A stretch of 64,000 nt of DNA from Bimastos eiseni (taxonomy: Eukaryota; Annelida; Clitellata; Crassiclitellata; Lumbricidae): assembly GCA_959347315.1 (NCBI GenBank), contig OY365818.1:7449394-7513393 (forward strand), read 5' to 3'. The position numbers were made by a program, and so were the translations under genes. The notes beneath the pieces are model-generated. The model made no database searches. It was not told the origin of the DNA and was given only the letters and a program-made list of their open reading frames with translations. This document shows positions 25,684-52,066 of the stretch, piece after piece. How positions within the stretch are numbered: the first letter of the stretch is position 1; every line of letters starts with the position of its first letter.

Positions 25684-28600
25684 CTATAGTATTGCACAAT
25701 TGCGATCAGTAGCAGGAGGGCCAGCTGATTCGAGTTGCTGTCGAGGTGCTAGTTCACACGGATCGTGAGGTCCTGTTTTACATGGAAACCGGTGCAGGCA
25801 TATGAAGCAGAAATCATAACCGCAGCGCTTATTTGGACATTTCATGTGTTTACATTTTTTTGTATATTCAATTAACATCAAGCAACTCGGGCATGCTCGT
25901 CTAGAAGGACACTCAACACCATTTATTGTTTTAGTGTCACAAATTGCCAGATAGTGGTAGAGCCTTGTAAGATCACCGCACAGAGGGTTGCCGCAAAACC
26001 ATGCCCTACTGCCATTTTTCCACTCTTGCAAACATGACCAGCAAAAGTCGAAGTTTCTACCTTTTTTTGAAGTACACTTTATGCAACGGACTCTTAAGTA
26101 GTCTTGCTTTGACCGGCGACAGACATCTCCACATCCAGGACAATTCTTTATTTCTGTCGATCGACTCAGTCCGTTTGTAATCATTGTCCGTTCAAATTCA
26201 AATGTTTCATTCTCCGATAGACACGCAGCATCCACAATGGACCCAAACGACCAATCAGCAGCGCAGTCAGAAGCAGGACATTGTATCTTGTGTGCTCCAT
26301 TCGCAATCTCATTGCGACAGTATAAAGCCAAGGAAGTCGACGCTGGATTAAAGAAGGTAAATGGCAAAATAATGAATATTTTTGACGTTCATTTATGATT
26401 GTTACTGGATGGCAAATGGATTTAGCTTATTAAGGGCGACGACTACTTGATTCATTCAATCATTCTGGGCATTTATCTAGCTTACTTCAAAGCATACATA
26501 GGAAGTGCAGAGGGAGACATGTGTCTCCGAGCGCCAATTTAGAAGGTGGTGCCAAAATGAGGACTAAAGTCATTATTTTATTTTGTTTTGGTGCAACTTA
26601 ATTTATCCCAACTAAGTTAGTAAGATTTTAATTTGGAGACCCAAAATAGACCTTTCCTCATTAGAAAAGAAGCAGGTTGTGAGACCTTATTTTGACGCCC
26701 TCGGGCCTCAATGATCAATGATCACTAAGGACCCGAATTGAGTACTTGATACTCATGACAACATGACATCTATAGTTTTAGGCTTAGTCAGACGTCGATG
26801 CACTTCATCAAAATACCAACGTTACGCCTCTATAGCCAATTTAGGATCGACTAAAAAAGTTTAAGTAACTTGCAAGGCTCTACCCATGGTGAATCGTAGG
26901 TGAGAGCGGAGCTCAAGTCGGAGGTAATAACAGATGGGAGGGCTTACCCCTGGCTTAGAACAAAAAACTAGGCGATACTTAACAGCCAAGTGTGCCCGGA
27001 GCAGTGAAAACTTTTCGCCGTAAAGCAAAGCATTCGACGCGATGCCCAGTCGGACACTGGGCGATAGAGATTGCGCAAGTAAGATGGAGCACAACCAAGA
27101 ACGCAACGCGAAAGCAGAGCACTAATGCGGTATGAGATTCGTTTGGACAAAGGCAGTCAATGAAACCCATCACAAGACGAAGTGAAGCGACTGGTTGTTT
27201 GATATGATCTCATGGACAAGTTTTACGACTGACTCTTACCAAAACTTACCAATGGCATGGCCGCAGGACATCTTCACACGAGGACTTTCGTCATCCATTC
27301 CCATAATGTCAGGGAGATCTCTTGTGAGTTTTCCTTCTAGCGATACTGCTTTAGTTGGATCTCGGACCTGTTGCTCAATTTCATTTTCAGTTGGCAATCC
27401 ACCACCATCTAGATGCACTATTAGTTGTATAGTGCACCTATCTCTTAAACTGTCAAGGTCAACCAAGCGCCTTTTATCACCTTCATTCAGCTCCACACCT
27501 AACGAAATAAATTATGAAGTTATTCTGACAGTCATTGTGATTGCCCACTGTTTGTATAATTATCTTTGATTATTAGGTTCACTCCTAGAGTCCTTCTTAC
27601 GTATCTGGCCAAATTATTGACCTAATAGTGATCCACATAGCATTAAGCAAAACAATACAATCGATACTGACGCAACACAACATAGACCGAGCATAACACC
27701 AACATGACATGAGCTGTAAACGGTTTTACTAGCGTTAATTATTTGTGTTGAACTATATCGAGGCTCGTATATTGGACTTTTGAAATTGTCTGAAGGTGCG
27801 GACGGTGATAATACTAACACTGTGTCTAATCTTCTGTATTCGATCAATGTAAACTGAATTGTCAATTTAACTAGTTGTATTGGCCGTTGTTTATGTTCTT
27901 TGAACAGAAGACGCTCACAAATAATGTGAGAATGCGCTGAAAAAATTACACCTACCATCGAGAACACCAAGGGTCAGTTTTTGTTTTTGATAGATTCTCT
28001 CCTTTTCTCGAAACTTTTTGAATAGATCTGCCACTGGAGCGTTCTGTACAAATGCAATGATATGTGATTCAAGCAATGTTAACACGACTCATTCGCGATA
28101 TATAAGGTCACTTTGCTGTCAATTCAAGAGAGAGACAGACAGGCAGGAGCAAAAGAAATGAATAAATTCTAAAACATCAGGTAGCGAACAATGACACTTT
28201 AAATTTCACTTTAACACTTTAATGCAACTTCAGACACGAAACCAGTGGTTAAGATTGAAGCATTGCTTCCTAAAGTGTACATGTTCCTCTAAACTATGGA
28301 TGTGATTTCTGCGTATGCATACAAACATATAATGTAGAAAAGACATTAGGATGGATACGAGAAATTTGGCATGGACACACGGCATCGGGGTGGGGCGTAG
28401 GGCTATGAGCAACTCACTGGCTGCAGAGCAGATGAAGCGAATTCGATTCCTGCTACCCTGCTACTCCTTAGGTTTACCAATCCTTCATCCGCTATAGGTA
28501 GAAGCGTTGCCTAAGTCAGATTATAGCATGTTGGGAGCCTTGCATGGCTGCCGACAGTAAAATACTACACTTGTGAACATACTACGTTTCGTAAGTCTGA

Positions 28601-28737
28601 AATTAATATGACAATAATATCATAATATTCTTTTTATTACGATTTATTTAAAGTAGTATTTTTCTGACCTTAATTATCGTAATTGGAACAGTTTTGTTCG
28701 TATCGGTAACGATGTTAATTTGCCACATGTCGCCCAT
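25684..28737 (-). CDS. G4: Ubl-RBR ubiquitin ligase-like protein ending CAIL
   Basis: Exons 28669-28737, 27956-28043, 27250-27498 and 25684-26342 give 354 residues. The start at 28737 is in good context (gaaATGG); the ATG three codons later (MWQINI) is an alternative. The ubiquitin-like domain spans 1-85 (WQINIV...; LVDLDSL...; HLDGG). CGHAI at 131-135 opens RING1. IBR motifs are CPGC 203-206 and FDFCWSC 233-239. RING2 has the catalytic Cys299-x-His301 in KCKHMKC, and its next zinc pair is spaced by four residues (CPNKRC), as in parkin's CPQPQC. The protein ends NCAIL, a CaaX box with X=Leu, predicted for geranylgeranylation. The tail after APRQ is short. It is the sister of G3 in a duplicated block. 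No lesion was found. Function as a membrane-tethered RBR ligase is inference. Confidence 0.85.
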
Positions 28738-31700
28738 TTCTGATCGAATAAACCTTCCTAAAAGTAAATAAGTAGTTTACTTGCATCCGAAATACCGTGA
28801 GGTCACGTGGTGTAAAGAACGAATGGAGCGATGAGAGGCAGCCGTAAGAGGACGACGGATACAATCTCAAAGATAGCGTGGAGCCTGACCCAAAGACGCT
28901 CTGGAAGGGTGAGGAAAAGAGCTTTAAACCGATTGCTGGCTATTATTGAAAGCCAGTGCGCAAGGGAAGCGGGCGATCGGAATAGTTATAGATTTGGTCA
29001 TTTACGCTAGAGTTAGTTTCTGCTCGAGTACGTGTAAACTCAAAGGAAAAAAGAAAAAGAGGGAAGGAAACTACATTTGGCTTAATATCGGTAATTGCCA
29101 AATATTTCCCCAGACGATCTGAAGGCATGTATACATGTAGTTCTAGAAGAGTAAAATTTCTACGGCCAAAGCTTTAAAGACCTCAACGCTACCCATTTGC
29201 GATGTAACTTCACCAACGCTCCTGTGCGTCTATTTTGAGTAACGAGCATCGCATCATTGCCAGCATAATACAAGAAATGCTCAATTAGCGCCACTTCCTC
29301 TAGGGTTGACCTACCCACGCATGGAGCAGCACGATTCGACATCAAAATAGGAGGCCTTGGAGTCGTATGCACATAATTGGCATTGAGCATGTGATGTACG
29401 CTCTAACCGATGTGTCTAACTGTACGTGTAATATTTCAGACAATGAAAAGCCAGTAGTTGCGATTGATATTCTGATCAGAAATCTACATAGATACACACC
29501 TGCGAGACATTGCAAGACACACAAGATTCTTAACTGACGAGTATTTTAGCTAAGTGGTTTTAGCGACCATAACTATACTCAAAATGGGTTCTTCCAATGT
29601 ACAGATCCAAATATTGAGGGCTACGTTACATCAGCGCTAAAGAACGTGCTCGCCTTAATTTGACAACAATTATTTTTGTTTGACTGGGATTGAGCTAAGT
29701 GCAAGGTTCGAAGAGTTTGGTTTAGAAAATAAATGGCCGTTAGTTTAAACTTACTTATGAAATGTCAAAGTGCCATTCTGAACAGGCTTCGTGCATTAGA
29801 CAAGGTCGTCATTGAGAACGATGATCAGAATAGTAGGCCTTCTTTTTCAAAGGGTTTCATACTTGCCCGACTCTTGCCAATATTATCACTGTGTTGTAAA
29901 GTTCTGGATATTCGGCAGAAGTGATTCAAGAGCAGAATCAAGCAGTGTCTTTAGTAAAACAGCCTATATGATAAACAAGCTTTATGCACGATCCGCTTAT
30001 CAGAGTCTTCGTTTAGTTCAAAGAAAGAACGCCAACTACATATTCGGGAAAATCAATCGTTGCCTTATAACGAGTAGCCTACATTTATTTAATGGTGCTA
30101 CGTGATTGGAAATTCCTTGACGGAATCCCGCTGTTGTGTTATTATCTCTTTCGTTTCATTGACTGCAAAGTGAAAATGAAAGGGCGAACATGCAACGGTG
30201 TTTCGGAATATCCACATATAACCATACAAGCTCTTTCCAACTATATCATTCTCTCTATCGCTATCTGCCATTTCATGTTTATATATATATGTATATATAT
30301 ATCCAAATATATCCGAATTTATCCGCATCACCATGGATATAACAGAAGAGCGACATTCGATGAAAAAAGAAAGAAAGTTAGCAGATATTGGGACATTAAG
30401 GAAAGCAGATAGTTAGCCAAGACAGAATGGATGGAGAGAAGGATGCATTAGTCCACTAAATTCTGCTTCCGAAGCGCTCTATAACACAGCTTTTATTTAC
30501 AGTTCGCACTGTTCATGTAGTCTACACTCTAGCCACATTCCGCATAATTTAAACCACATACTTTAAACTCTTAACACGAAGTTAAACTTGGCCAAAACGA
30601 CAACCACGCGCGTCAGCAACACAAAGCATTCTATTTTCTAGTCTTCACAACAGAAACAATTCCCATTTATAGGCCATCAACCAACGACGCTTCGGAGTGG
30701 AACTACGAGCATTATTTTTGTTATAAAGTTTGAACACGAAAGACCGCTGGCAATACACCATTAACCTACACATTGTCATTATTGTGTGTCCGCAAAGAGA
30801 GCATTTTCTCCCCGGATTTTGCCTCTATTTTGAAAAATAAAATCGCTTGATCATTATGAATATTACGACGCGATTTTCAAAATACTTAGATATCAAGAGT
30901 TTAGGGTGCCGTCTGTGTAATAATAGTGGCCCACAGAATAGGATTTTATGGCTCAGAGGTGTAGTACAAATTTCGAGGGCAAGAATTGGCTAGAGGGTCT
31001 AAAAGAAAAAGAGTGGCGAAACAGATAAGACTGGAACTAGAGTCGGGTTGTCAAGCCAGGAGTAAGTAGGTCTGGATCTATCGTGTAAAAAGCGGCAGAG
31101 ATATCGATGAGTCAGACACCACGAACTTGTCGATGACTGACTGCAGAAACCAGTATATAAAATATGAAGAGCGACGAGCAGGGTATATGGGCAATGGGGT
31201 TTAGTAATTCGGATGGTGAGGTAGAGCAGTGATTTGGTACAATTTTACCGGAGAAGATTACAGGATAACCGAATCGAACTGAACGACACCTTGAGAGTTA
31301 AATGCAAGGACTGGAGGATCTTGCAATTCATATGCAAACACCTGAAAGCTCTAAGTATCACACAGCATACCTGATTCATTCCATACGCCTCCAGCTGCAC
31401 GGCTCCATACGTGCAGTCATTGATAACAGGCTGTTTATTGACCATTTGACATCAGTTTCAAACACATTTTAAATAGTTTGTGAATTAGTTGGATTAACGA
31501 TCGCAATTGCGTTATTGGCAAAATTATAATCTTTACAATTTATCTGATCACCTGTCCTATTATTATAATTAGCATGAATAATATAGCAGACACAGCAACT
31601 GATCTGTCTGTTTGAATACAACGAGACTTGTAATCTGGAAATTAGTCATTAAATATTCATGTTAACACTGCTTCAAGCTGTGGGTAACTAGGTACAGTCT

Positions 31701-31776
31701 GACCATTACTTTCCCTTCTGAAGTTTCTTTCCCTCACTCTGCTGTCTCTTGTGTAGGCATATATGTGCCTTAAACC

Positions 31777-31862
31777 TCTTTCATTCGGCAGCTGTTAGCC
31801 ATAGTATGGTTAACAGCTGCCGAATGTTTCATAGTATGGTTAACAGCTGCCGAATGAAAGAG
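31777..31862. repeat. Palindrome with a duplicated arm
   Basis: The unit cattcggcagctgtta pairs with taacagctgccgaatg around ccatagtatgg. The right arm is present twice in tandem, and the outer ctctttcat pairs with atgaaagag. The same ctctttcattcggcagc recurs at 32729-32745. Confidence 0.85.
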
Positions 31863-32382
31863 ATTTGAGACTTGAAGGGTCTGTATTACAGTCACCCGGG
31901 TCTAAGCAACATGACTCTTACTAAATGGCAAACATGGTTTCAATCTAGCACGCATAGCAACACACTTGAGCTTCTACTGTCTTTGCCGTCAACTTGAACT
32001 TGGAACTGATCACGACTACACCTGCCTCAGGGATTTTGTTTTTGATCCCGTGGCTCTATAGGAATGAAGCTGACTTCCATGACAAAAGTGTTGAAATGTA
32101 GAAGAAATTCATAAGTTCGTTGTTACTGTAAAGATTACCTCTCACAATTGGGACGGAAATTTGACCGACCACTGTGACACACATTGTAAATTACTTACAG
32201 ATCAACCCATAGGAAATTACTGGATGGCTAGGATTCTTTGAGCTTGCAAGAAGTTGCAGAGAAACGTGGTGCGAGATGCCAGGCATTGTGATGGTCAATT
32301 TGCTACGGTGAATCCGCTTTTACCACATCGACTCTTCTAAAATAAAATGCCTTTTTATCAGTGTTGGGAACGAGACCAAAAC

Positions 32383-32575
32383 CTCAAGACCAAGACCAAG
32401 ACCGAGGGGTCCAAGACCAAGACCGATGGTCCGAGACCAAGACCAAGATCAAGACAGATGGTCCGAGACCAAGACCAAGACCGATGCATTCGAGACCAAG
32501 ACCAAGACCAAGACCGCAGTTTTCCGGTCTCGAGACCGTCTCGAGACCAAGACTGCGGTCTCGAGACCACATCCC
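32383..32575. repeat. gagaccaagacc minisatellite
   Basis: Short units of gaccaagacc and gagacc, ending in ggtctcgagaccgtctcgag palindromes. A related array on the other strand lies at 51080-51890, so this is a dispersed repeat family. Confidence 0.85.
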
Positions 32576-33269
32576 TGCTTTTTATTCTAGAATACTCATG
32601 ACTTTGCAGTCGCCAAAATTCCCAAACACCACATGACCCTATTCTTAAATATCTTTAGTGGCCAAAAGCTACTCAGCGCATCCACTGCAAATTCAACTTC
32701 TTACCAACAATGCCCTTCAAACCTCAACCCTCTTTCATTCGGCAGCCATTAACCTTACGATCACCTGAGTCTACTCACTCATTATCACATCGTTTTCTTT
32801 CTCGACCTCCATTGTTATCCCCTCCGAACTTTGACACCGCTCCATTGTAGGCCTATATGCTGCATCAGCTGTTTGGAATAGACTCCCAATTATTAAAGCA
32901 TCTCAGCCAATTCGCTATTACTCCCATCTAGCCCATTGAAATCTCATCTGATACTTTCTGAAAGAGTCTGAAACCGGAACTCATCATGCTATCAGATACA
33001 GATTCTGCTACTGTGTCACACACGTCGATTTTCGTGGGTGCTATGAAATTTTCTAAAACCTTCATTGTCTTACATTTACCCCAGTACATAATATCTTTAA
33101 ATAGATGGCGGGAACAACGCTCCGATCGTTTTTGGTGGGTGAATGCATACATTCATCCTCCGCTGACATTTCTTATGGTATATTTTTTTCAATTTCATAG
33201 TAACTTATCGTCACTGTCAAAGTGAGTATTTACTTTTATTGGAAATCTAATTCTTCGTTTATCTTGTGC

Positions 33270-33345
33270 TATTTCTGCACGAATGTTATTTGTTGCGGAT
33301 TGTTAGGTTGCCTAACAGACGAAGATACAATAATTACACCTTACA
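33270..33345. mobile_element. Fragment related to the hAT-like element at 53 kb
   Basis: aatgttatttgttgcggatt and acgaagatacaat match blocks near 53147-53200 inside the hAT-like element. No ends were found here, so only a fragment is called. Confidence 0.35.
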
Positions 33346-36300
33346 GCATGATTTTGTTAATGCTGCGTGTTTAAAACGGTCTATTTTGCATCAACACTGA
33401 TTTGTGTTATTTTTCAATGTTTTGCGCTGTATACAATTCATAGACCTACATTCTAGTCAAACAAACGTTTTATGTGATTATCATCAAATTACCTTTTTGG
33501 TCATTATTCCGTGATTCAGTTGCCAAATATTCGCGAGTCGGTTCACAATTTATGTAGGACTTATGTAAAATAAAAAGCAGCCCACAATGACTGACTATTC
33601 GCCGCCGATCGAAGACCACGCGATGATCACATGAACATGATGAAGTTAATTGTGACTCTTAAACTGCGTCTACGTTCAGAATAATCAGCAGGAAATCCAC
33701 CAATTAAAAGAGAAGACACGCAACAGAATTATGTTGCTGCTGAATTTTGCCTGATAGGAGTGATTTTGTGTAAAGAGTTTCAGGACATGACTGACAGACG
33801 TAGCGAGGTTAATACCAGTTTCCCCATAGCACAGTGCTTGCATGTTCAGTTTACAACTAACATAATTATGCATGTGCATTGTGCAATTGTGCATGCATAT
33901 GTATATTGATCTGGAAATCGAAAATGTAATCTGTGGATTTTGTGAAATTTGCATAACCACACTTGATACTCGTGATCTTCCTCTCTGCTGTCATATCTTT
34001 AGTATGTTGCTTCGTCGTCTCTCTTGATCGCATCTCTCCTCTCCTTCTCTCATTGTTCTAACGTGACAGAAGCTATTCAGCATTGTCGACAATAATATTC
34101 GTTGCCAAGTGGCTCTTGATTCGGTCGCCACTATTTCATTGAAACTACAAATTTTCCTTAGAAAGATAATTATCATAATGGAATTATTAGCAACCTGGTT
34201 CTATGAGGATCACGATTGGTTAGGTGAAACCTGGTTATATGTGAACCATGTTTGACCAACATTAAGTCTGGTTATACAAAGGCCAACCGGCTATCGATTT
34301 CTGGTGTCCTACCCGTAGAACAAGTTACAGCAGGAACAGGATGGCGATCGATCGCCGTAGCACTCGATATAAAGAGCTATCCATGCCAGACATCGCGGCT
34401 ACACTACAGCCAGTGATTTCTTGCTCATTTCATAGTGTCACTAAGTTTGATCATTTGAATACGAGGAGGTGTCTAGAACAACCAGATGTTGACATTGGCA
34501 TGCCTTTGTGATAATATTGTCATTGGATCTCCAGATCGAAGGCTTCGCTTATGTGCCTAATAATGTCGTTATCTTGCATCCACATCTATCTCAAATCACA
34601 TCATCAAATTCGTTATCATTTATCTCTTCATAATTAAGCAACTGTTTCCGTAAATTTCTTGCGATTTTAAGAGAGATGAATTAGGGCCTACTGTGTGTGA
34701 ATCTCCCAGAGAAGTTAGTCTGCTCGTTTTAGATTTAGACCTCGAGCCAGTCATATATTTTGGTCTGAAAGAAGATATGCGTAATCTTGAACAGACCATA
34801 AAAACATACTGTGCATATAATAATGTCGTCACGAGCGTTGTAATAATATAACTGTTGCCATTGTTGTCACAATAATTCTTTGGATCATATTCTAATAGGC
34901 CTACCTCCAATATTCTCACAGTTGATTTCCTCTCAGCCGTCCTCTGGATGCTGGTCGGGAAGTTGACGTGTTGATGGCAATGACGAAAACGCTTTGCCTT
35001 ACCGGACGGTTGAGCTAACCAGTGAATATTATTACAAGCCAAGATCTTTGCATATCCCAGGATTCCCTTCTTTGGGTCCTACTGCCGCAGGTCTGAGTGA
35101 ACTCGCATATTATGGCATCTCACGACACTGCTAAGTGTAACAGTCCAGGTCTAAAGCATTCACATAGGCCTAAGCTTGCCCAGAGATTAGGCTATAAATA
35201 TGAACCGTTAGTGATATCATTTTCTCAACATTGGCATATGCAGGCACTTGGCGAATCCTCATCTTCGCCATTTGATCATCCGATGATCCGACTGATATTA
35301 TACACTACCTTGAATATCTCGAATGAGATCCGTGGCAAGGCCAACGTCAACCACGTTCTGCAGGACTTTGCTGTGGTTTTCGCACTGGTTATTCACAACG
35401 CTCATCAAAAGCGAAATCGGTTAATACGATCATGAACGGTTCGAAGTTCAAATCGACAGCTAGAACAAAACAATGTCAAGTGTCGCTTGAAACAATGTTA
35501 TCACTTAGGCATATCCATGGTTTGAACCTACAATGAGCCTTTGCATAATTTCAATGTATTCAAGATCCATTGAGCATTGAGTGAAGAATTCTATGCGATA
35601 GTCGAATGATCATATTCAGATTAGTGTGGGCGTGTGCCTGAAGAGAGCGCTAGGGCAGAGAGATTGGCTACATGCGCATGTAGATAAAACTGTGAGTAGA
35701 CGTGTTCCCGTATGTTGGCTATAAGATCAATGATAATGCATAGAATACACATAATTGTGTATTCTTTCCTGTTGCTCGCTGTTGCTCACCGCACTGTTGC
35801 TCGCTCGCTAACTCCAGACGCCACAGCTACACCTGTCTTTGCCTTCATCACAACCTGACAGATTACTGCTGCTCATTCTATACAGGCCATCCAGTTGGGC
35901 GTTTGCGGCGCTTGGACCGGGTTCTGCGTTCTACTGCACGAAGACGTCAATTACTCTGGATTTATTGTATTTTCGATCCGAAGTAAGATCTTGTCGCGCC
36001 ACATTAATTTTCTTAAGCCTGTGATTTTTCACGACAATCAAGATCTGTAAATACACCATTTATTTAGATTCTCGCAGCATAGAGATATAGTTCAACTAGA
36101 CGACCTAATTATGAATTCAGATATAAACACTTATCGATAGAATAATAAAGCTTCATTTCTCAGTAAGTCTGTGAAACTATTAAATTTAAAATTAAACTGG
36201 AAAACAATAATTCTTAAAGAAGTAGGCTTTCAGAAGATACGATAGAAAAAACGTCCTTTAAGCGATATAAACCGAATAAAAGTATAGCAGCTACGTTTAA

Positions 36301-36535
36301 AGTTTGAAATACTCATTAAAAGCGTTGATTGATAGTCATTATTACATTCATGTATAAGCCTATAAACGAGGATAAGTCGACCGATTTTTGCAAGCTGCAA
36401 CAATGAATAAGATGATGCACAGTCACTGGTCAAAATAATAGTCAATGAGAGTCAAAAATGGCTTGCAATTATTAGGGTACAAAAGTAATTCATGATGCTT
36501 GAAGCTTGGTATTCAGACGTCGTCCATTTCTGGGC

Positions 36536-39500
36536 CTACATGATTACACACCGGTTCTTTAGACCACACCGTTTTTTCTTCGACGAGTTCATGTCAGATG
36601 TTTGATGGTACTTGTGTGACGAAGTCGTGTCAGGTCGTGCGGTAACGTTTGACGAGGTGATGCCAGATGTATGAAGGGATATGTTAGACGAGGTCATGTC
36701 AGCTCGACGAGTCAAGTTTGACGAGATAATGTCAGGTGTATGAAGAGATATGCTTGAATAGGTTATGCCAGGTTTCTTATATAGTTTATTTGTTACACCA
36801 GGTGTCTGACGGGGTGCTACGAAACATGGCTGTGAGCTTTGGGGACGCCAATCGTGAGTTCCCAGGCACATGAAGCAGAACTCGTGTTTACAACCTGTGC
36901 ATGTCATGTGTTTGCACCCGTGAGTATGTTGAATGGTTAAAGAGCACTTGGGACAAGCGCGGATAGACGGGCAATGTTTTCCGTCCAATTCTTTATTACC
37001 GCATTCTGCTAAAATTCTGAATAACTCATTGCTTTCACAACAACCCGAATTGCCACATTCCCCGTATAAGTCGTTTTACCAGTGTTTTTCCAGTCACGAA
37101 GACAGTCCCAACAGAACTCATAGTTTTTTCTACCCTTTGACTTGCAATTTAAACAACCCACGCGCTTTTCTTTATCGCTGTGACGATGGCAACTGACGAA
37201 GCAGTTTGGACATTGCTTGACTCCTGCTATCCGTCGGTTCGTCAACAATCTCTGTTCAAATTCAATTGTTTCCTCGCCTGAAAGGCAGGCAGCTTCTCGA
37301 ATGAGCGAGAATGGCCACGTGGAATTGCAATTATCACCAGGACATATGATTTCATGCCTCTTTTTCTCCAATTCGAGAAGGCAGTAAGACGCCAGAGAAT
37401 GTGGTGCTATTGATGGAATGAACAAGAAATCAAATGATGCATCAATAAGACAGTGAATAGAGTGATTGAATTATGCACACTTAGGTAAGTAAGTAAGCAT
37501 ACTGTTTTATTCGATATTTTTTTGATAGCATCTTGATGTAGAGGCAGAGGGTAAACACAGCAGGATGTAGGCATATGCAACGTTATACCAATAAATGCTT
37601 TGCTTTAAACAAAAGTGGAAGAAAGCCAGCTTCTTAATGTACGGGTATAAAGTGTTTACTGCTTGTATACTTAGCTTAGGAAACGAGGGTAGGTGGCCAG
37701 CCCTTTTCTTCCCGCCTGATTTTTCAGCTAGCAGCGTGTGCACAGTTTATAGCTTAGGCTTACCCATAGCATGAGTAGGGTTGCAAGTGGAACCACATTT
37801 TTGCCAAGTCGGGGCTTGTACCTCCGACCACAAAATTAATAATTCTGCAATCTATAACCGCATTACCTATTGCATAATCCAAATTAATTATTAATCCTTA
37901 TCTAACTGTAGTTATGAGTTATCTGATAACTTAACTAAGCCTAATGAGCATACTTTTCAAGATTCGCCACCTATGTCCGTGACTTTTGCGACTGATGTGT
38001 TAGAAGTACACTGTCTTAAACATAGAGGTCTAGTACACGAACTTTGTGTGTGGAGAACCAAGCTGATGAAAATAATTAACCACATAATTATAAAATGGCC
38101 TGTACTATTTTACCGTCAGGTCTTGCAATATGAAATTACATCAGTCGTATGTCCTTTTAGAATTTAGGAGAGGCCGGCTCGCTACCTATAAACAATAAGC
38201 ATGGTCGATCACAACTGTGTGCTTACCTATAGCATGTCCGCACGGCATGATGACACGGGGATTGACGTCATCTAATCCACAAACATCAGGGTCGTCCTTT
38301 GAAGTGGTGATCCGTATTTTTCCTGAAGGTTTCGGATTGCGTGGTCTTCGGTCTAGTTCTTCTAACGTAGGCCAAACACCTCCTTCTAGTCCAACGCTTA
38401 AGCTAATAGTGCTTTTGTCGTTTAGTTGGTAATGCGATAAACGTTGAGTTCCATTGTCCTTGTTATCCTGAAAACTTATTCCTAATAAAAAAGCAATGTA
38501 CCTGGCAACTGTACGATTATTGCTGCATGTAAAAATAATCGTACGTGGTGCAGAGAATCGATATGACAGAGACGAACTTCAAGGAGAACTTGGGCTGGTG
38601 GGGGAGAGTGGACTCAATTAGTTATGAGCACTTGAAAGACATGCTACTCTTGTCCGATCAACAAACGATATCAGTCACCATAGATGCCAATTGTTCGCCT
38701 GAGAAGTTTCATTACAATCTACATAAGGTCGGTTGGAGTCAAGGCCAAAGACAATCAGGAAGTAGCAACATTGAAGCCAACATGAAATTTGTATATGAAT
38801 TTTGCCATCAGTTAGGTCTAAATTAGTGCAGATAAAGATATTACTAAGACCTTTATTGGCTTTTGTGAGTGCAGAAAAAATGTCAAAGGTAAATATCTAA
38901 TGACTATAACAGAAGCACATGCAAATATGCGTTAATGGGTGCAACTGCAATGATAAATAGTCTTATATCACCGGAACATATATCGATTGGTGTGAAATTT
39001 ATGTCGAAACTGAAAAGATTCCAATCAAGAAATCAATGAACGAATGTTCGTCCTTTTGAACTTTACATAATAATTTGAGAAAATTAATGTTCTTCGTACC
39101 TTCTACGACATAGTTTCAAATAGAAACAAAAGCACGTGACTGTAAATAATTATGTTCAATTTAAATTTCGTAACGTCACATGAATATAATTATATGCTTG
39201 AGTTTAATAACCTAATGAACATTTTACCATCTGAAGTGTAGAGTCTATAACTAGTTCCTTTTGGAATGTGAGGATGATCGATGATTTTCTGCAGCAGCTC
39301 TGATATGAGACAATCCTAGTAAACACAAAGTGAACAAGAACGTCATGACGAAGTTTCTTTTAATGTGAAAGATCACGTAGTAGGAGGTGTTTGGCCTACG
39401 TTAGAAGAGCTAGACCGAAGACCACGCAATCCGAAACCTTCAGGAAAAATACAGATCACCACTTCAAAGGACGACCCTGATGTTTGTGGATTAGTGCTCG

Positions 39501-40830: not shown

Positions 40831-43800
40831 GCCAGCTAAACCATTGAAATCTGGTCACGCATAGGCTCTCAGATAAAATCAACATAGGCCTATAATAGGC
40901 CTTATAATAGGCGGGTAAGGTGAGGTTAGTTCTAATGCGATAATTTACATACATGTACGACGTTGCACGTAGGATTTTTAGATAGTCAGACGAGTAGACG
41001 GCTAGGCTTAGTGGATTCAATTGGCATGCACTTCACTTGCAAAAGAGAGGATTTACCCGTCATCAATGTTAACTCTAGGTTGTGCGCATGTGCGCGCGCG
41101 CACGGGTCGTGGAGCGAGCCCACGCAAGAATTTATTGTTCGCACACAATTTTTCTTCTAAAGCCTACCTTACTTCAGGAACCTTTGTTCCTTGTTCTTTG
41201 GTACATTCCGTTATATATTTATAGACAGGGAACTTTCCCAAGGTTATCAGAACTCATAAAGATTGACTTTTAGATAAAATTATCGTCTCAAATATTATTT
41301 AACTACCATCGTATTCAATTCGGACCTGCTCAGTGCGCACAAAAGTGTGAACCATTTAGTAAATGTCGCATACACAAAATTACTTGCGCGCACTATCCCT
41401 TAATAATTAGAGGGTACATCGCTCGTCACCACCATCTTCGCCATCAACGCTTCGACGTGTAGCGCATATTCTGCGGAAGAACTAATTATATACCTATGCA
41501 CGACCTATGACGATAATGAATCTGAAAAATTGCCAAAACCTCACCTGAACTAGTACAATCAAACTAGATACAAATTCAGGAAATAGCCCAGGCGTTACTG
41601 TATGACGTCCTTTGTTTGCGCACAAGTTGAAGTAAAAAGGTAAATTTTCTTAGTCACGTATCAAAACTGACACAACCAACACTTCTGTCATGCACCCATG
41701 AACCGCATTGTAAAATGTTGCGGGCTTATATTAAAATTCTATGAGTAAAGGCACATATTTCTGTTCGAGCTCGCAAAGCAAAGATACTTAGAGTGTGACC
41801 AAAATTCTTTCTTGCGCTTCGCTCTCACGCACATTCAAACACGCACACTAACACACACGCACACGTACACAGACGCACACATACACGAATTGTATATACA
41901 TTCATCTGAAACTGATAATAATATAACCATCGCATTTTATTTGTTAATCATTGTGAAACGATGCGCGCAAGTAATGCCTATTTATAACTCAATTTGACCA
42001 TGTTTGAACCCTAGATATTTCCTTGAAAGACAATCCTGATTGATAATTCAGGAACATGGTCAGATGATTTAACTGATTACATCAGCACTCAAGGTTCAAC
42101 TGTTCTAGGCGTTGAGCTTAACATTAAACCGATAATGGAATGGGGGCCCAACATTAATGTAAAACACTGGCGTGAAGGGCAGTACATAAAGGCTGACTAG
42201 TCCATCCATTGGCTAGGCGGTTTTGGCAATGTAAGCTGTAGAACATTCATTCATTCATTTCGATAATTTATACAGCGCCTCTTCAAGGGAAACTACTCAG
42301 AGGTGGTCCCAGCCCAGCCACAGCCAAAAAGAAATGACTTTAGTAGCTTACAAAAGGTAGGTAGATCATTGTAAGGAGGAAGGCGGAGAATTATACACAG
42401 AGCCCCTTTAAGATATCTGTTCAGAGGCGTTGCATATAGGTCTAACTATTATCAGTAATAATCTTACTGCTACGATTACTGTTGATCTCGGCATGTTATA
42501 AACTATAATGAATAACCATATCTATAACCCTACACTTTATCGCCACTTGTTTCACAAAATCGCAGGACAGTCAAAGTCGAAATATAAATGTATTTTGAGG
42601 AATCAGGAAGCATTAGTAGATAAATTTCTCAGACAGAAAATTATGTGTAAACATTCGCTGTTAAGTTTAACCAGCCAAGAAGGAAGTTTGACTATCGCTG
42701 CGATCACCTGCATGTATAGGCAGTTAATACGTTGTCACTGAAAATGAATAAAGTCTGTACTGGGCAATTGCACTGACCAGCTAGACCGTCTTTCGCAAGA
42801 ATCTAGTGTCGATTCGTTTGCAGGTATACACATAATTATTTTGCACATATTCCATGCTCAGAGCACCTCTGAAGATTCGACAAAAGGCGATATATAAATC
42901 TATACGAACAATACGATATGAACTGTTCTGTTGATTTAACGATGGCTAAAATTTTCCTACCCGGTCGGTTGAGCTTGGTAGTGGGTATCCTTTATGGGCC
43001 TATTATAGGGAGAGGTCAATTCCCAGTCAGAACTGTAGGACTCGATTTTAAAACCATGTTCTTTTCGACATCCAAATAAATAAAAATCATCAGAAGTACA
43101 AATTTAAGGTTCTTTAGGTTTTGACTGTTTCAGTCACATCAATTGATTTTTTAGCTAATTAGAATAATATTTGCAGTCTAGTACATTGTAGTCTGCACAC
43201 TGGAGTGAGTGCACAGTGTAGACTGTAAAGCTTAGGCAGGGAGATCGAAGAAGGACATACGGTACGGGATGTTCTGTGTATACCACCAATTTTCTGCCTG
43301 GTGTGCGACTATACGCATTTTAAAATCCGAAAAGCATTTATTGACCTAATAAACCTAGTGAACCTAAAGACCTAAAAGTTTTTGTCCAGCTCTTGTGCAA
43401 GTGCCTCTGCGTGTACTTAACGGTCAGAGTGGACTCGCATTTTGTAGCATCTCACGACATTGCAGTGTGAGACCCAATTACGATTCTGCTCTCCGACTGA
43501 CAATTACACTGCACCATTTGACAATCTCGACAGGAACTATTATGAGATCCAAAGTAAGCCACCGACAACCCAGCTTCGCGGTGTGTTTCAGTGGTTTTTG
43601 CACTGGCTCTTCACAGCGCCGGGAAAGGAAAAATCTCAAGTGCCGTTGTAAATAATGTTATCACATAACCATGTTTTGAAATCATTATGGGCGTATTATA
43701 ATTATTTCATTGTGTTCAAGAACCAGTGAGCAATGAGCATTAAGTGACGAGTACGTGAATATGTGAGTATGCGTGTGGTGAGCATTGGGTACATGTAACA

Positions 43801-46441
43801 TAACCATAGAAGTTGACTATGCCCGTATTTTCCCATGCATGGATGGCCTATACACAATGCGTACAGACATTTAATATTGCGTTCTTCATACATGTATATA
43901 CATGTATGTACATGTAAGTATAAAATTATATGGCAAGAAAGCAGCTGTTTGTGCAAGCTTAAGTGATGCAGCTAATAGAATACACCTATCTTTCTTATGT
44001 CAATATCGCATGGGAATGTGTATTACCAGAGTATGCGCATATACCCTGATTCACTCAGTCATTTCGTAGTATGCATTCACTGATAAACTGGGTAGATTAT
44101 ATACATAATTATGAACTGACATTATCAAATGATTTCTGTTCACAAACTCAGCAAGACTTCAGTAACAGATCAGTCCAGTTTTATATGGCAAACATAAGAA
44201 CCGTAAGTCTGCCTAAAGCTATAGAGTTTGGTGAGATTAAGAAATACTTATTGACATGTTACAAGTTGTCACATCAGACCAGCTGCTTGTGTATGATGCT
44301 GGCTCCAACGATGCATTGGAATATCCGTGGACATCAGTTATTTTTTTTATTGTTCATTGTATTCAAATCTGTTATCTGTTTTATTATTAAGCGTGATTAA
44401 GTGTCGTTTGATCTCATGATGAGTGATGATCCGTCGTTGAGCTTAAGTGCCGTTGTTTAATAAATGAATGGAGCGCTATTATTACTGGGCGACGAACTTT
44501 CTGCACGTCTAGTAGGCCTATGCATCCCTGAAAATGCAGAGTGGGCTGTAATATGATATACGCAAAAATTATTCCGTGATTTCTTTTCATATACCCTGAA
44601 CATGTTACAAAACACCACATTAAGCCATTTTCACACGACGACAGGCATCTTATTGGAATCATTAAAGCCACCATTGCGGCATGTAAAAATTAGTGTCCCA
44701 AATTTTAAAACATGATCGACAAGCATCGGAAACCTGGCAAAGCAGTCATATTCTTTATACATTCTATGGTTATTCAAGGGATTCCGAGTAAGGCCTTGGC
44801 AACACTCTGTCTCCTTCGATGTCTAAGCTTCTCGTGCATCTATTCATTTACAATTTAAGATTTTATTTATTTTATTTATTACTGAAATTTTATACCGCAA
44901 TTCTTTCAACATGTTTTGCTCATAAGTGCACAGAAACGCACAGTACGCAAAATGTACTGATATGGTTCGTCATTTAAAGAAATATCATTTCCAGGGTTAT
45001 TTTTTGTTGTAATTCATTCTACTCTCCTCTTCAGTGTGTGCGGCATCCAGGTTATGGAGAATGTCTGCTGTGCGATCAGCCGAGCACTAACACCTCATTA
45101 GACTGCTGTGCAAGTTTCATTGCATACTATTTGGTAAATTGAATTGAAAATCAATTGACTCGATGTTTTGGGGCGATAACTCATTCTCCTGAGTTGCACT
45201 ACCCTGAAACACAGCACGCATGGACATCCCGGTAAAGCAGTCGTAGTAGGCCTATTCCTTATTCTAACTGCGGTAATTTTAATTGAAGACTGTGTCAATT
45301 CCGTGGCGGTTGGTAGAATAAAAAACCACTGCCCTTCTTTTAAATTGGGAATACAACCCTGGGTCAATTAAGTGTCTTGTGTGCAAAAATTACAGTAATG
45401 ATAAAGACGGCGAAAATTAGTGTATGAATTCCTTAATTAAGAATGGAGGAAGTAGGCGTAGGCCTAAGTCAAGTTCACACGATATCAAGGAGGAATCCGA
45501 TATGAGATTGGCGGAGAGCACCCGGTTGAAAGGGTTCACACGAGGAGAGAACCGCTGAAGAAGTGAGAAAAACAGAAGGAGTTGAATCTTTTGTGAACTT
45601 GCATGTGGCATATATCTTGGTCTATATAAAGTGGTAGCGTTGATCAGCCTTGAACGGAGCCTGTGGTGGAGATCTGGGGGCAATTATAGCGGCCAAGAAC
45701 TCTGCGGTCTTTTCCCATAGTCATCTGAGATTCCGTCTCTCTGTTGAGAAGCGATTCACCGTAGGCCGACGTGGTTTTCTTCAGCTGGTACCCATAAATA
45801 TCCAACCGTATCGCTTTTTTAGCACATCACAAGATGCATTATTCTTGAAAAATGCTGAACAAACGCCAATTAGTGGGGATTTTTTTTCTGCCCGAAGTAA
45901 ATTCTTGAGCAACCACTGAATTTCCCCTACGCCTTTTAATTTTTTTTACGACAATCATAATCAGTAAATACACCATTTGTCTAGAATTTCAAATCATAAA
46001 GACAATTGTTCAACTGAACCATATAATTACGTATGCAGACAAACACTATAATTAATTTAAGCTCCATGTTATCACAATAAAATATAGCTTCATTTCTCAA
46101 CAAGTCTGTAGAACGACAACAATGAAAACTAAAATTCCTAAACTAGATTGTCAGAAAATTCGATGGCAAGACGTTCTTCAAGCGATATGCACCGAATAAA
46201 TATTCGCAAAAATACATGTAAATGATTAAATTGCAGTTGTGTTCAAGTTTGTAATTATCACTTAAAGTGTTGATTGAAAGTCATATAAGTCATGAATATA
46301 AACAAACATAAGATAATCGGTAGTCGCTGGTTAAGAGTTATAGTTTGAGACAAAAACAAACTTACAATTTATCTGAATTACCAAACTAATTTATGAGGCT
46401 TGGAATTGGGTATAATTATGGAAGTCATCCATCTATGTGCT
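40679..46441. other. Spacer between G5 and G6
   Basis: Upstream flank of G5, with patches shared with the flank of G6: 40766-40804 with 52139-52178, 41540-41640 with 54640-54720, and 42505-42640 with 56155-56280. It also holds a CA-rich array at 41830-41885 and a possible retroposon tail with attc units at 42243-42300. No host gene recognised. Confidence 0.5.
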
Positions 46442-49400
46442 CTATATGATAATACACCGTTTCTTTGAACGACTCCGCTTCTTAGGCGAGTTCATGCCAG
46501 AAGTCTGAAGGGACGTGCTTGACGAAGTCATGTCAGGTCGTTTGGTCACGCTTGACGAGGTCATACCATATGTAGGAAGGGATATGCTTGAATAGGTTAT
46601 GCCTGGTGTCTTGTGTGGCTTATTCGTCGCACCAAGTGTCTGACGGGGCGCAACGAAACATGGTTGTGAGCTTTGAGAAGGCCAATCGTGAGTTCCCAAG
46701 CACATGAAACAGAACTCGTGTTTACAATTTGTGCATGTCATATGTTTACATCCACGAATATGTTCTATGTTTAAAGAGCAATTGGGACAAGCGCGGATAG
46801 AGGGGCACTTTTTTCCAAACAAATCTATAGTACCGCTTTCTGCTAGAATTCTGAATGGCTCATTACAACCAGAGTTGCCACATATATCTGTTCCGTTGCA
46901 TTTCCACTCAGAAAGACAATTCCAGCAGAATTCATAGTTTTTTCTTCCCTTTGATTTGCAATTTAAGCAACCCACACGCTTTTCTTCGTCGTTGAGACGA
47001 TGACACCTGACGAAACAGTTTGGACATTGCTTGACCTCTGCTTTGCGTCGGTTAATCAACATTCTCTGTTCAAATTCCATTGTCTCCTCGTCTGAAAGGC
47101 AAGCAGCTTCTCGAATGAGCGAGAATGGCCACGTGGAGATGCAATTATCCCCAGGACATGTGATTTCATGCTTCTTTTTTTCCAATTCGTGGAGGCAGTA
47201 AGACGCCAGCGAATGTGGTGCTATTGATGGAATAAAGAATAAAACTAGATGAATGCAACGAGAACATAGTGATGAAATTTTGCACCGTTGAGCAGGTAAG
47301 TTACCATAAGGCTTTATTACCCAATATTTTTTATCGTACTTTGATTTACATACATAAAATATACACAGCAGAAAGCATGAAACGTTCAAAGAATAACTGC
47401 CTTACGTTAAACCTAAGAAGAAGAATCTTAGCTTCTAACTTTGCGGGTATGCATAATACCATTAGCCACATTTGCACTTAGCTTAGGAAACGAGGGCAGG
47501 CGGCCAGCTTTTTTGTAGCGCCTGATTTTCCAGTTGTCTGTATGCAATGGGGACTCTGTATGTCTGAGGTGCATAGGGGTGCAAATTGAACTAAAATTCG
47601 GGAGCACAATGCAGGGGCTTATATCTCCGGACTCTCAATTGACAGTTCCGTTTGCAAGAACCAGCAGACTATCGTACACCCCGTTTAAATTATAAACTTC
47701 AACCATGGCATGCATGTAAGTTTGCCGATAATAAAACTAAGCAGAATAATCTTTTGATAGTTTTACAATAGGTTTCTTATGAGCTCTTGCAGTGGCATGG
47801 TCTCGTTTACGGCGCCTTACAAATTGTCGTCACTATTATTATATTATTACTATTATTATTAATCTTACTTAGCCAGATTCGCTAGCTATCGTTACTTTGC
47901 GGATTAGGCCTACTGAATAAGCTACTCTGACCAGAAAATGGAGGTATTAAACAAACTATGTTGATGCAAGACCAAGTTGCTGAAAATGATTAAAAAAAAT
48001 TATTAGTGATGTGGCTATTCGGAATGTTATTATGAGTCAAGCAATAGGCCTGAGTACCCGTCTGTTATACTACCCCCAATAATTTTTTTCAATAATTATC
48101 GTCATCAATTTGGTATTTCATTTATTAAAAAAGTATGCGTCGTGTGTGTCGGTGAGGGTCAGGGTAGGCTTCGTGAGGGTCGGTTAGGTTAAGGGTTAGG
48201 GGGTTTGTAGTTTATAGATATAAGGTGTCAGAGCAGGGCCGACATATTGAGTCACGACCTTGCCCTGACACTCTCGATCTATAAACCACAATAACCCTTA
48301 AACTAACCTTGACCGACCCTCACGATGCTTAACCTGACCCTTCCCGACCCTCAATGAAGCATATTACCACATTAAGATGTTTTAACAGTCCGTATGCGCC
48401 AAAATTTGCCGATGACCAGATGTCTTCGCTCGCCAAATTTTGTACGTATTCCGCCGTAGAAGTATCAGTTTTTTTTTATTACGGCCAAAGTTTCGGTCAG
48501 AAATAATTGATTCTTATTCAAAAGTTAGAAGACGGACATGGAAATCATTTGCATAACATAAACTAAACATTAACTAGAGAAGTTTAGAGAAAGTGGACAA
48601 GTGATTCAAGAACTAAATTCTGGGGATAGTATAATAGACAAGTTACCCTAGGTGATTTATTCGCCGCATGTCTTTATGTCTTATAAAACTCATTTTGAAG
48701 AAACTCTCTCGCCACCTACATGTAAACAATAGGCATAAATGGTTGAGCGCAACTGTGTATTTACCTATAGCATGTCCGCACGGCATGATGACACGGGGAT
48801 TGTCGTCATCGAGACCGCAGACATCAGGATGTTCCTTTGAATCGGCGATCCGTATTTTTCCTGAAGGTTTTGGATTGCGATGTTGTCGCTCTAGTTCTTC
48901 TAACGTGGGCCAAACACCTCCTTCTAATCCAACGCTTAAGCTAATAGTGCTTCTGTTTCTAATTTGGTAATCCGACAAACGTCGATTTCCGTTATCATTG
49001 TTGTCCTGAAAGTTTGTCCCTGATAACCGAAAATCACTGTACCGAGCTACTGTACGATAATTATTATTGTCGCATGCAAAAGTAATCGTACGGGGTTTTG
49101 AGAATCGATAGGGCCTACGACAGAGACGAACCCTACACAGAAAACGCGGGTTGGAGAGGGAGAGGGAACTCAATGAGTTTTTGAGAACTTGAAAAGCATA
49201 CCATTCTCATCCGATCAACGATCGATAGCGGTCACATGGCAGCCAATTGTTAGCCCGGGAATTGATAGACCATATAACTACAATCTATATAAAGTGGTTT
49301 GAATTTAAGGCCAAAACTGTTTAAGAGTAGCGACATTGAAATCTCGTACGTTGAAGCCAAAACGATATTTATTATATGAACTTTGCCATCAGTCAGGTTT

Positions 49401-50128
49401 AGTGTGCGCAGATAAAATGCTAAAGACTAGCTATAATCGGCTTGAACCGAACCATAATTATGCAAACATGCGTCCAGTCATTTAAATTTGAAGTCACCTG
49501 AAGCTACATCGATTGATATAAGATTTAGGTCGTACCTCCACAAGATTTTCAGCCAACTTAACAGACCAATGGAAAACTATTCTCCGTTAAGACCCTCGCG
49601 TAATTAGCTGAGAAAATGAATATTGTCGTACTACCTGAAGGAATTTTTTTAACAGAGTTTCAGACAGAAACGAAAGTACGTTACTGTAAACAACGACGTT
49701 CAATTTAAATATCGAAACGTCACTTAGAGAAATTCTGGCAAGTTTGCATGAATATAATATTGATAACCTCTGAATAGCTTACCATCTGAAGTGTAAAGAC
49801 GATAACTAGTTCCTTTCGGAATGTGAGGATGCTCGATTATTTTCTGTAGCAGCTCTGATATGAGACAATCCTAGTTAACATAAAGAGCAGAAGAAAGGAA
49901 TAATGAAGCTTTCTTAAGTGTAAAAATCACGTTGTACTATACTTTTTGATGAAGGACCACGTCCGGTGTATAATCAAATAATCCGCCACCGGATTGACCC
50001 CCTTACATTCGCACCTATCCAAAACGTCCATAATGTATAAGGCAAGTGCAGCCTTATCTAAAATCTGATCTACTGAGTTCGTAGTCCTCAAACAATAGGA
50101 CAGTGGTGAATGATTGTTGCAATTGAAG

Positions 50129-50161
<33 letters not shown>

Positions 50162-52066
50162 AAATTGAACTAAAATTATAATTATTATTATTATAATAAA
50201 ATTGAACTAAAATTATAATAATAATAATAATTATTATTATTATTATTATTATTAGAAGGTTGGATGGCTCATAACTGTTTGAACACTATGATGCCGATTG
50301 TAGTTATAGATTGCAGTGCCCTTCGATTGGGTGCATTCTTAGCAACGCAGAAATAATTTAAAGATTTTTGCTCCCAGGAAATCAGTCTGGCTTTCAAAAA
50401 ACCGCTACACAGGGTCGTTTTGATGTATACTGCACTATGGGGTTACCATTTGGCACGGTCTGCTAGGTGTCAGTGCGGCCTTTAATACGGTGGATCAAGT
50501 GATTCTAATCGATCGTCTTTATATTTCTGTTGGGATTAGGCTACTTGTAGGCGACGTGATTGGCTTCGCTAATTTGGATGGGTGCATGTTCTGCGCTGTC
50601 GTTGAGTTAGCTCGGTTTCATTGAGACGTCATTCATTTTCATAGGGTCATGTTCTCTGCTCACTGCTGTAGGTTATACACGCAGCTGACAGTGCAACTGC
50701 CCTGACAGTCTATAATGTTTGGAGTCATCTCTGCGATAATTATATGATCAGGCTTGTCTGCATTGTTCGGCATCTAATGATTTGACTGCAGTGCTCAATA
50801 TGTCTATGGAAACACTTGTCTATCGAATGTCGTCCAATCGTTTGCTTCTCAGTGCATCCAGGCTATAGATGATTATTTCTTCGCTATTTCCTTTCAATAC
50901 CTGTCAGTAATCTTGGGTTTGCTTTTGATTTAGGAACTTACCTTTCCTGAATACCTAAATCTCGTTCGCCGTGCTTGTTAATTTAGGGATGCGGAATTAC
51001 TTGTCGTTTCCCGACCAATTACAAGTTCAGGAACTGTTGACTATGCTCAATCAATCAGAAGCTAAACACCGTTAAACAGAGTTATATGGTTTCGAGACAA
51101 TGTCTCGTCCTCGAGACGTCTCGAGACAGTGTTGGTGTCTCGGTCTTGCTTTCGGGAACCTGCTGTCTTGGCCTCGGTCGACGTGGTGTCTCGAATTTTT
51201 AGAAACTGTCTTGAAGTGAAAGCCTTGTTCTGTCTTGAACAAGCGGTCTCGATAAGTCTCACGTTAACTGTCTTAAGTCTTTCGCTATGAAAAACGGTCA
51301 TTCTGGTTGACGCATGACGGTGTGATCCACATGATACTGAAATCATTTCGATTTTCTTAAAGTGCCAAAATGTCTGAGAGAGAACCTGACAGTGTGAAGT
51401 TTGCGTTTACGCTATTGACAAACAATAGCAATGGCGTGCCATTTGTCGTTGATGTAAAGCCACCTTAACGGAAACGATCTTAACAACATTCAATTTCTCA
51501 TGGTGAGTAGGCTTAATTATGTGTCACAAATTTATAATTTCGTTTGGTATAGAATTTACTCGTTTAAAATCGCCTAGTATGACTAGAAGATTTCAGACGT
51601 TTCTAAATAGACTTTCTTTATACTATTCAGAAGATAAGCTGACGAATATATAGGGTTTATGCCAGCAATAGAAAAATTGTTCTCTGGAATTGGTACTATA
51701 TGCTAAGTTTCAAATTGAAATTATAAATGAACCTTATTCCCGAAAACTGATACATTGAGTATTTAGCACCTTTCACTCAAGATCACTTGTCTTTTACTGT
51801 GTTGTACTGTCTTGGACCTAGTGTATTGGTCTCGGTCTTGGCACCTCACTGTCACGGTCTCGGTCTCGTCTTGGTCTCGAAGTTTCAAGTCTTGCATACA
51901 AGTCTGCCGTTAACTAAAAGCTATCTATCCAATATCTGCACCTTATAATACAATGTAGTACTATGCCTTGACTAGCTTTTCTACAACCTCCGAAAATACT
52001 TACTTCGCTAACAGTAACTTGGACATTCTTCAGTGTGTCCATCATAATAAAAATCTGCCAAGGCAT
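46442..52066 (-). CDS. G6: Ubl-RBR ubiquitin ligase-like protein ending CIII
   Basis: Exons 52004-52066, 49783-49870, 48765-49019 and 46442-47220 give 394 residues with no lesion. The ubiquitin-like domain is 1-85: WQIFIM strand, [11 protein letters not shown] helix, YRLYTSDG, then LSDYQI and GLEGG, closely following ubiquitin's MQIF, helix, LSDYNI and RGG landmarks. CGHAI 131-135 opens RING1; CPNC 201-204 and YEFCWNC 231-237 mark the IBR. RING2 begins at CPNC 280-283 and has catalytic Cys293-x-His295 in GCKHMTC. After APRQ 326-329 comes a Ser/Thr-rich repeat tail, a basic patch (KKRSRSKKR) and CIII, a CaaX-like end expected to favour geranylgeranylation. A role as a membrane-anchored RBR ligase is inferred. 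Intron 1 has gained a LINE relic, an ATT array and a gtctcgagac repeat; intron 3 carries a long hairpin. Confidence 0.86.
48151..48358. repeat. Long imperfect hairpin in G6 intron 3
   Basis: Arms of about 90 bp: gtgagggtcggttaggtt, ttaagggtta and gtttatagat on the left pair with atctataaac, taacccttaa and gaccgaccctcac on the right, with a short central loop. MITE-like. The telomere-like ttaggg bits are incidental. Confidence 0.85.
50131..50256. repeat. ATT/AAT array with a duplicated spacer
   Basis: Runs of att and taa enclose two copies of aaaattgaactaaaattata, making a near-palindromic block in G6 intron 1. Confidence 0.9.
50330..50880 (+). mobile_element. Decayed CR1/L2-like LINE reverse transcriptase
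   Basis: Across several frames the plus strand still shows a SAAFNTVDQVILIDRL motif (typically SAAFDTVDHxIL) and, further on, YRMSSNRLLLSASR (typically WMxxNRLxLNxxKTE). Heavy decay, with no continuous frame. It lies in G6 intron 1. Confidence 0.55.
51080..51890. repeat. gtctcgagac repeat blocks
   Basis: Two blocks (about 51090-51250 and 51800-51890) are rich in gtctcgagac and ggtctcggtctt, separated by 550 bp of ordinary sequence. Related to the plus-strand array at 32383-32575 in the opposite orientation. They may be the ends of one element. Confidence 0.6.

Follow-up and report, generated by a model that had tools for sequence, protein, structure and literature searches.

A stretch of 64,000 nucleotides from the earthworm Bimastos eiseni (contig OY365818.1, positions 7,449,394 to 7,513,393; hereafter the window) is eukaryotic DNA with introns, and carries on its minus strand seven copies, G1 to G7, of a single ubiquitin-ligase gene family. 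The gene combines a ubiquitin-like region (UBL) with the RING1-IBR-RING2 (RBR) order of domains, and several copies terminate in a CaaX prenylation box. The last exon holds the end of RING1, the IBR domain and RING2 across the copies, while the exon before it encodes the second half of the UBL and terminates in CGHAI. In all five copies in which both exons could be joined (G2, G4, G5, G6 and G7), CGHAI is followed by a phase-1 intron bounded by GT at its donor and AG at its acceptor. All exon positions are collected in Table 1.

One copy, G2, is complete. Joined, its four exons form an uninterrupted reading frame of 384 codons and a stop, which is colinear over its full length with the 385-residue homologue P0050, and both proteins end in CCLQ. 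Because P0050 comes from a contig of only 1512 bases, when the equivalent exons of the window cover 3.9 kb, and because it alone among the relatives matches all four G2 exons, it is most simply read as the assembled transcript of a G2-related gene. Intron 1 of G2 is apparently of the GC-AG type (donor GAG/GCAAGT, window positions 12415-12420, minus strand).

The other copies vary in integrity. A stop is readable in six of the seven, the exception being the decayed G3, and three (G1, G3 and G5) are broken. G1 matches P0050 only by using two frames. In G5, three-frame translation places a frameshift near 37050 in the last exon, between IBR and RING2, and consequently G5 as assembled yields no full protein. 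The last and third exons of G4, G6 and G7 are intact, and exon 2 was located for G5, G6 and G7. First exons of G4 to G7 were not found in the window, nor were any G4 exons upstream of its third-exon equivalent.

CaaX boxes lie directly before the stop in four of the six copies with readable ends: CCLQ in G2 (stop at 8603), CAIL in G4 (25684), CVIM in G5 (36536) and CIII in G6 (46442). All four have a Cys at position -4 and an aliphatic residue at -2. The unboxed ends are those of G7 (KFSK) and G1 (LQER). An initial annotation of the sequence had named exactly these four boxes, as well as a basic patch ahead of the box in G5 and G6, and each of these features was found as it described. The locus it gave, 25684 to 52066, takes in G4 to G6 and leaves G2 outside; its count of four boxes among five readable C-termini holds for the boxes, with six as the number of readable ends.

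The last residue of a CaaX box specifies its lipid, with M, S, Q, A or C directing farnesylation and L, F or I geranylgeranylation. By these rules, the final Q, L, M and I of the window boxes are all accepted by farnesyltransferase (FTase) or geranylgeranyltransferase I (GGTase-I). The basic run ahead of the box in G5 and G6 (KKRSRSKKR in G6) resembles that of KRAS4B, and is missing from G2 and G4. Both lipid type and target membrane may differ between the window copies, with G5 and G6 set apart from G2 and G4. G7 is presumably a soluble paralogue. Its relative P0001, 87% identical to it, likewise ends in FSK, which indicates that the unboxed form persists.

Downstream of the APRQ motif, the tails that carry these boxes fall into three dissimilar types (one in G2, one in G4 and one shared by G5 and G6). 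They range from about 17 to 88 residues including the box, and are box-terminated in each case. Between G5 and G6, the nonsynonymous (dN) and synonymous (dS) divergences of the tail are 0.27 and 0.47 (dN/dS about 0.56), against 0.07 and 0.47 for RING2 (about 0.15). Despite this fast change, both tails retain a basic run followed by a CaaX end.

We compared these ends with those of 218 homologous proteins retrieved by three protein searches, two of which contributed their best 120 of 246 and best 120 of 181 matches, the latter search using a profile built partly from boxed proteins. Database gene models were accepted as given. Listing the C-terminal tetrapeptides of relatives, as the initial annotation had proposed, showed that 38 of the 218 end in C-{DENQ}-[LIVM]-x, a PROSITE-type prenylation pattern. 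Of these 38 boxes, 30 have I as their second-last residue; the final position holds L in 22, S in 4, M in 3, I in 3, Q in 2 and another residue in 4. The predominance of L suggests that the boxed homologues would mostly be geranylgeranylated, if the rules above apply. By the same rules, the last residue is acceptable to FTase or GGTase-I in 37 boxes, the exception being the T of P0202.

Box frequency follows tail length, measured as the number of residues after the RING2 core (seven proteins without a recognisable core were left out). Tails of at most 35 residues end in the box in 2 of 146 proteins, those of 36-50 in 8 of 24, and those of more than 50 in 28 of 41. In these 41 longest tails, Cys occupies position -4 in 29, while the remaining 19 of the final 20 positions hold five Cys altogether. 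A cruder tail measure gives a similar picture: of 51 long tails, 33 terminate in the pattern and 34 have Cys at -4, against ten Cys at other places among the final 20 residues, and two CaaX-like words occur in 2026 internal positions. The initial annotation had argued that chance would rarely give such ends, and this is borne out. Rather than lacking a C-terminal Cys bias, long-tailed homologues are strongly biased to Cys at exactly -4, and the transcript-like P0050 ends at the same place as G2, in the same CCLQ, rather than differently. The same bias, together with P0050, supports the suggestion of lipid-anchored ubiquitin ligases, in which lipid attachment itself is a prediction.

Two homologues have unusual ends. 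P0004, a G4 relative and the fifth of five long tails retrieved without the box-biased profile, has no CaaX box and ends in a hydrophobic run (LVIVTIIIIVLIMVF); this looks like a transmembrane segment, and thus like an alternative membrane anchor within the G4 subgroup. In P0002, the end of the IBR domain and RING2 are tandemly duplicated ahead of a CAIM box.

The RBR architecture is well supported. Pfam IBR models match the window copies, with two stretches in G4 and in G7, and the RING1-IBR-RING2 order follows from these models together with PDB profile and fold matches. A RING2 core with its catalytic Cys is present in 211 of the 218 homologues, and this Cys is invariant in a 65-row alignment that includes G2, G4, G6 and G7. 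An AlphaFold model of the G6 last exon, built with this alignment, has a mean predicted local distance difference test score (pLDDT) of 81; in ten-residue blocks, scores are 84-97 for residues 1-190 and fall to 42-60 in the final 58. Searched with Foldseek, the model retrieved only RBR ligases from the PDB (39 of 39 matches at E<=0.001), namely ARIH2, ARIH1, parkin, HOIP, HOIL-1 and RNF216. RING1 appears atypical. In an alignment with ARIH1, the ligands for one zinc site are conserved and those for the other are absent. Among the 173 homologues with a CGH motif, none has a Cys 3-8 residues after it (RING1 ligands 5 and 6), and two have a CxxC in the preceding 45 residues, where some sequences are shortened. 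Structures of the RING1 domains of parkin, HHARI and RNF144A have two cross-brace zinc sites (PMC3940038).

Named carriers of the box comprise 18 species, from scallop to mammals. These are the scallop Argopecten irradians as the invertebrate, nine cartilaginous fishes, the lungfish Protopterus annectens, the salamanders Ambystoma and Pleurodeles, the caecilians Rhinatrema and Microcaecilia, and the mammals Cynocephalus volans (CVIL), Elephantulus edwardii (CVLA) and Tenrec ecaudatus (CVIL). The teleost source of P0202 (CRMT, on a short tail) would bring the number to nineteen but is doubtful. The family as a whole occurs more widely, including in corals, fungi and flatworms.

A quick maximum-likelihood tree was built from 214 sequences with their tails removed, comprising four window copies and 210 of the 218 homologues; the remaining eight had no core or too little sequence. 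On this tree the state of the box changes at least 24 times for 42 carriers (P0182, CQLL, included), compared with 35-42 times in 200 shuffles. The box is inherited within groups, yet has often been gained or lost. For example, P0135, which is close to the boxed P0148 (CVIL), ends in PVILN, as if its box had been lost. Truncated gene models may account for some of the apparent losses. Among the vertebrate sequences of the tree, the box is present in 23 of 40 rows of the cartilaginous-fish, lungfish and tetrapod groups, and in one (P0202) of the remaining 31 rows, which are mostly teleosts.

The vertebrate homologues, some of them from species in which the ARIT clade was described, fall in one part of the tree and the window genes in another. 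ARIT was named by Grimholt et al. 2025 as an RBR clade outside the defined subfamilies, without a transmembrane segment, which occurs in teleosts, reptiles, monkeys, elephant and echidna and has reportedly been lost in the lineage leading to hominoids (PMC12234341). The salmon gene responds to interferon gamma with a log2 fold change above 11. ARIT is described there without extra 5' or 3' sequence, and the main text of that paper never has the word prenyl (PMC12234341). Our vertebrate branch probably is ARIT, matched by species and annotation rather than by accessions: the homologues include proteins of Elephas maximus, Emys orbicularis and Alligator, also with no transmembrane segment. The salmonid relatives P0122 and P0126 have no tail. 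In contrast to ARIT as described, many of the relatives studied here have a CaaX tail, and the window genes have a UBL in addition. Given the 5' UBL and CaaX tail of G2 against an RBR-only ARIT, the window genes are not ARIT proper. The initial annotation also knew of no prenylated RBR family in the literature. We found none among the papers listed by searches of the open-licence literature of PMC, judged mostly by title and the start of the abstract, although the vertebrate branch has probably been published as ARIT with its lipid box unmentioned.

Several known systems share parts of this arrangement. The Ariadne ligases ARIH1 and ARIH2 are the best PDB matches in both sequence and fold, and share the RING1-IBR-RING2 order and the catalytic Cys. 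They differ in that P0050 matches only the IBR models of Pfam, and in that the present family has half of the RING1 zinc ligands; Ariadnes are not known to carry a lipid box. Parkin and HOIL-1 are UBL-containing RBR ligases, and as here the ubiquitin-like region is N-terminal to the RBR, but P0050 has no further Pfam domain between the two and the CaaX tail is an addition. Membrane-anchored ubiquitin-fold proteins (MUBs) inhibit charging of ubiquitin-conjugating enzymes (E2s) and are not known to contain an RBR. Their likeness to the window genes lies in a ubiquitin fold joined to a prenyl anchor (PMC4996978). RNF144A and RNF144B are, like the window proteins, short RBR ligases, and are tail-anchored by a transmembrane domain (PMC12234341). 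In the present family a lipid box takes the place of that helix, and a hydrophobic end was noticed only in P0004.

Prenylated immune proteins offer a further parallel. Human GBP5 depends on its box for both its location and its antiviral activity. In one bat lineage this box has been lost, and restoring it regained location and lowered activity against a rhabdovirus; OAS1 has lost its box in horseshoe bats (PMC13128109). In both cases a C-terminal CaaX governs location and has been lost in some bat lineages, as described in that source. Neither protein is a ubiquitin ligase, and the likeness is one of arrangement only.

We consider it probable that the window genes encode UBL-RBR ubiquitin ligases, several of them prenylated and tethered to membranes, that likely serve innate defence alongside a soluble sister, G7. 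A tandem, decaying cluster with turnover of its boxes follows a pattern like that of prenylated immune genes, and this, together with the GBP5, OAS1 and ARIT parallels, leads us to read these genes as membrane-tethered defence ligases. Prenylation, ligase activity, choice of membrane and an immune role are all predictions for the window proteins. We envisage that FTase or GGTase-I would modify the terminal CaaX Cys after synthesis, and that the flexible tail would then hold the ligase at the cytosolic face of a membrane. Ubiquitin would move from an E2 to the RING2 Cys, and from there to nearby membrane-associated targets. The tail, with or without a basic patch, and the last residue would together select the membrane, such that sister genes of the cluster might serve different membranes while G7 acts as a soluble form. 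Innate defence would be the likely job by analogy with prenylated immune proteins and salmon ARIT.

A number of observations weigh against this interpretation. Most homologues are tail-less, and it is among these shortest ends that the box was found in just two of 146. Thirteen of the 41 long tails are unboxed. The box-biased profile favours boxed finds; without it, 7 of 133 proteins are boxed, including 4 of 5 long tails. G5 is broken, and decay may explain part of the rate contrast between G5 and G6. Pfam shows no ubiquitin domain in P0050 or P0065. With apparently just one of the two usual zinc sites in RING1, E2 recruitment may differ or fail. Further, the bat GBP5 result implies that a box need not mean stronger defence, and, as salmon ARIT is described as tail-less, the interferon response is that of a member without a box.

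Prenylated ligases with a housekeeping or developmental role, rather than an immune one, are an unlikely but serious alternative. The family is old, as its presence in corals, fungi and flatworms attests, which would suit such a role. However, tandem copies, decay and box turnover would seem to resemble immune genes, and salmon ARIT is interferon-gamma-induced, with unstimulated ARIT.1 low in immune tissues and negligible in others (PMC12234341).

It is improbable that the proteins are prenylated non-ligases, acting as membrane-bound decoys or scaffolds because a half-RING1 cannot load an E2. The missing ligands on either side of CGH speak for such a role, but the RING2 catalytic Cys and zinc ligands are kept in 211 of the 218 homologues, which would be odd for a dead enzyme. 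The half-RING1 might instead recruit its E2 in an unusual way.

We give still less credence to the terminal tetrapeptide being selected, without any lipid, as a short protein-binding or stability signal, such as a PDZ ligand or C-degron. A T precedes the last two residues in 14 of the 38 boxes (for example CTIL), which is compatible with a class I PDZ ligand as usually defined. Yet the constant feature is the Cys at -4, for which PDZ ligands have no need, and CAIM, CCLQ, CIIQ, CVIS and CVIL are unfit for class I PDZ binding. Finally, functionless chance endings spread by gene duplication are very improbable: the window copies are paralogues, so their four boxes are not four independent events, and three of seven copies are broken, but the strict position bias, the recurrence in scallop, sharks, rays, lungfish, amphibians and mammals, the number of state changes on the tree and the same ending on unlike tails already contradict this explanation.

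Table 1. Features of the seven gene copies, in window coordinates.
Feature	Position	Strand	Remarks
G2 exon 1, start codon and first UBL part	12421..12507	-	29 residues, 90% identical to P0050 residues 1-29
G2 exon 2, UBL	10817..10904	-	83% identical to P0050 residues 30-59; AG acceptor, GT donor
G2 exon 3, UBL second half and RING1 start	9828..10085	-	74% identical to P0050 residues 58-145; donor ATTG/GTAATA
G2 exon 4, RING1 rest, IBR, RING2, tail, CCLQ	8603..9324; box codons 8606-8617	-	joined coding sequence open
G4 third-exon equivalent, UBL second half and RING1 start	27250..27505 (5' edge approximate)	-	open frame to ATTG/GTAAGT
G4 last exon, RING1 rest, IBR, RING2, tail, CAIL	25684..26342; box codons 25687-25698	-	Pfam IBR E 7.4e-9, IBR_1 6.5e-9; AG acceptor
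G5 exon 2, UBL	39226..39315 (splice borders provisional)	-	50% identical to G7 exon 2, E 4e-9
G5 third exon, UBL second half and RING1 start	38227..38482 (5' edge approximate)	-
G5 last exon, frameshift near 37050, basic patch, CVIM	36536..37406; box codons 36539-36550	-	IBR_1 E 2.7e-10 downstream
G6 exon 2, UBL	49781..49870 (splice borders provisional)	-	47% identical to G7 exon 2, E 2e-8
G6 third exon, UBL second half and RING1 start	48765..49020 (5' edge approximate)	-
G6 last exon, remainder of RING1, IBR, RING2 (catalytic Cys present), tail (about 64 residues)	46442..47220	-	IBR_1 E 1.8e-11
G6 C-terminal elements	basic patch about 46457-46483; CIII box 46445-46456	-
G7 exon 2, UBL	60989..61076	-	48% identical to P0050; AG/GT borders
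G7 third exon	59474..59719	-
G7 last exon, RBR without CaaX box	57981..58609	-	ends TSATKFSK; 87% identical to P0001
G1 last exon, frame change near 1311, no box	1015..1787	-	ends GHLQER; two frames against P0050
G3, decayed copy	16505..18136	-	readable third exon at 17891-18136; stop-containing RBR pieces at 16505-17021

Loose fragments of the family also lie in the window: a portion of the G5/G6 third exon, copied in inverted orientation (39356-39484, plus strand), and a short remnant resembling the end of the G2 RING2 (7382-7459, minus strand). At 4630-6529 (plus strand), open frames surround a fragment of a type-B DNA polymerase, matched by DNA_pol_B_2 with E 6e-9 within the open reading frame at 5201-5983; this is probably a mobile element, Polinton-like or of another kind, that has been broken. 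A short repeat at 480-860 lacks stops in several frames of both strands, as in SPIQHPENQCLE.

Beyond the window, we tentatively propose an ancient animal family of prenylated, defence-induced RBR ligases, an idea that is possible without yet being the likelier case. A swappable lipid box would direct its members to pathogen-bearing or replication membranes, making them the ligase counterpart of OAS1 and the prenylated GBPs. Teleost members would be unboxed, and, according to the search made in the ARIT paper, the family would have been lost toward hominoids. As ARIT, with its strong induction by interferon, seems to be the vertebrate branch, our findings suggest that an arm of membrane-directed ubiquitin defence has been overlooked: the salmon members studied were described as tail-less, and the gene is reported lost toward hominoids. 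Known routes of RBR ligases to membranes include adaptors, phospho-ubiquitin, by which parkin reaches them, and transmembrane tails, as in RNF144. If true, a lipid-anchored class would represent a new way of placing a thioester-forming ligase, one that would be switchable through four residues and open to existing prenyltransferase inhibitors.

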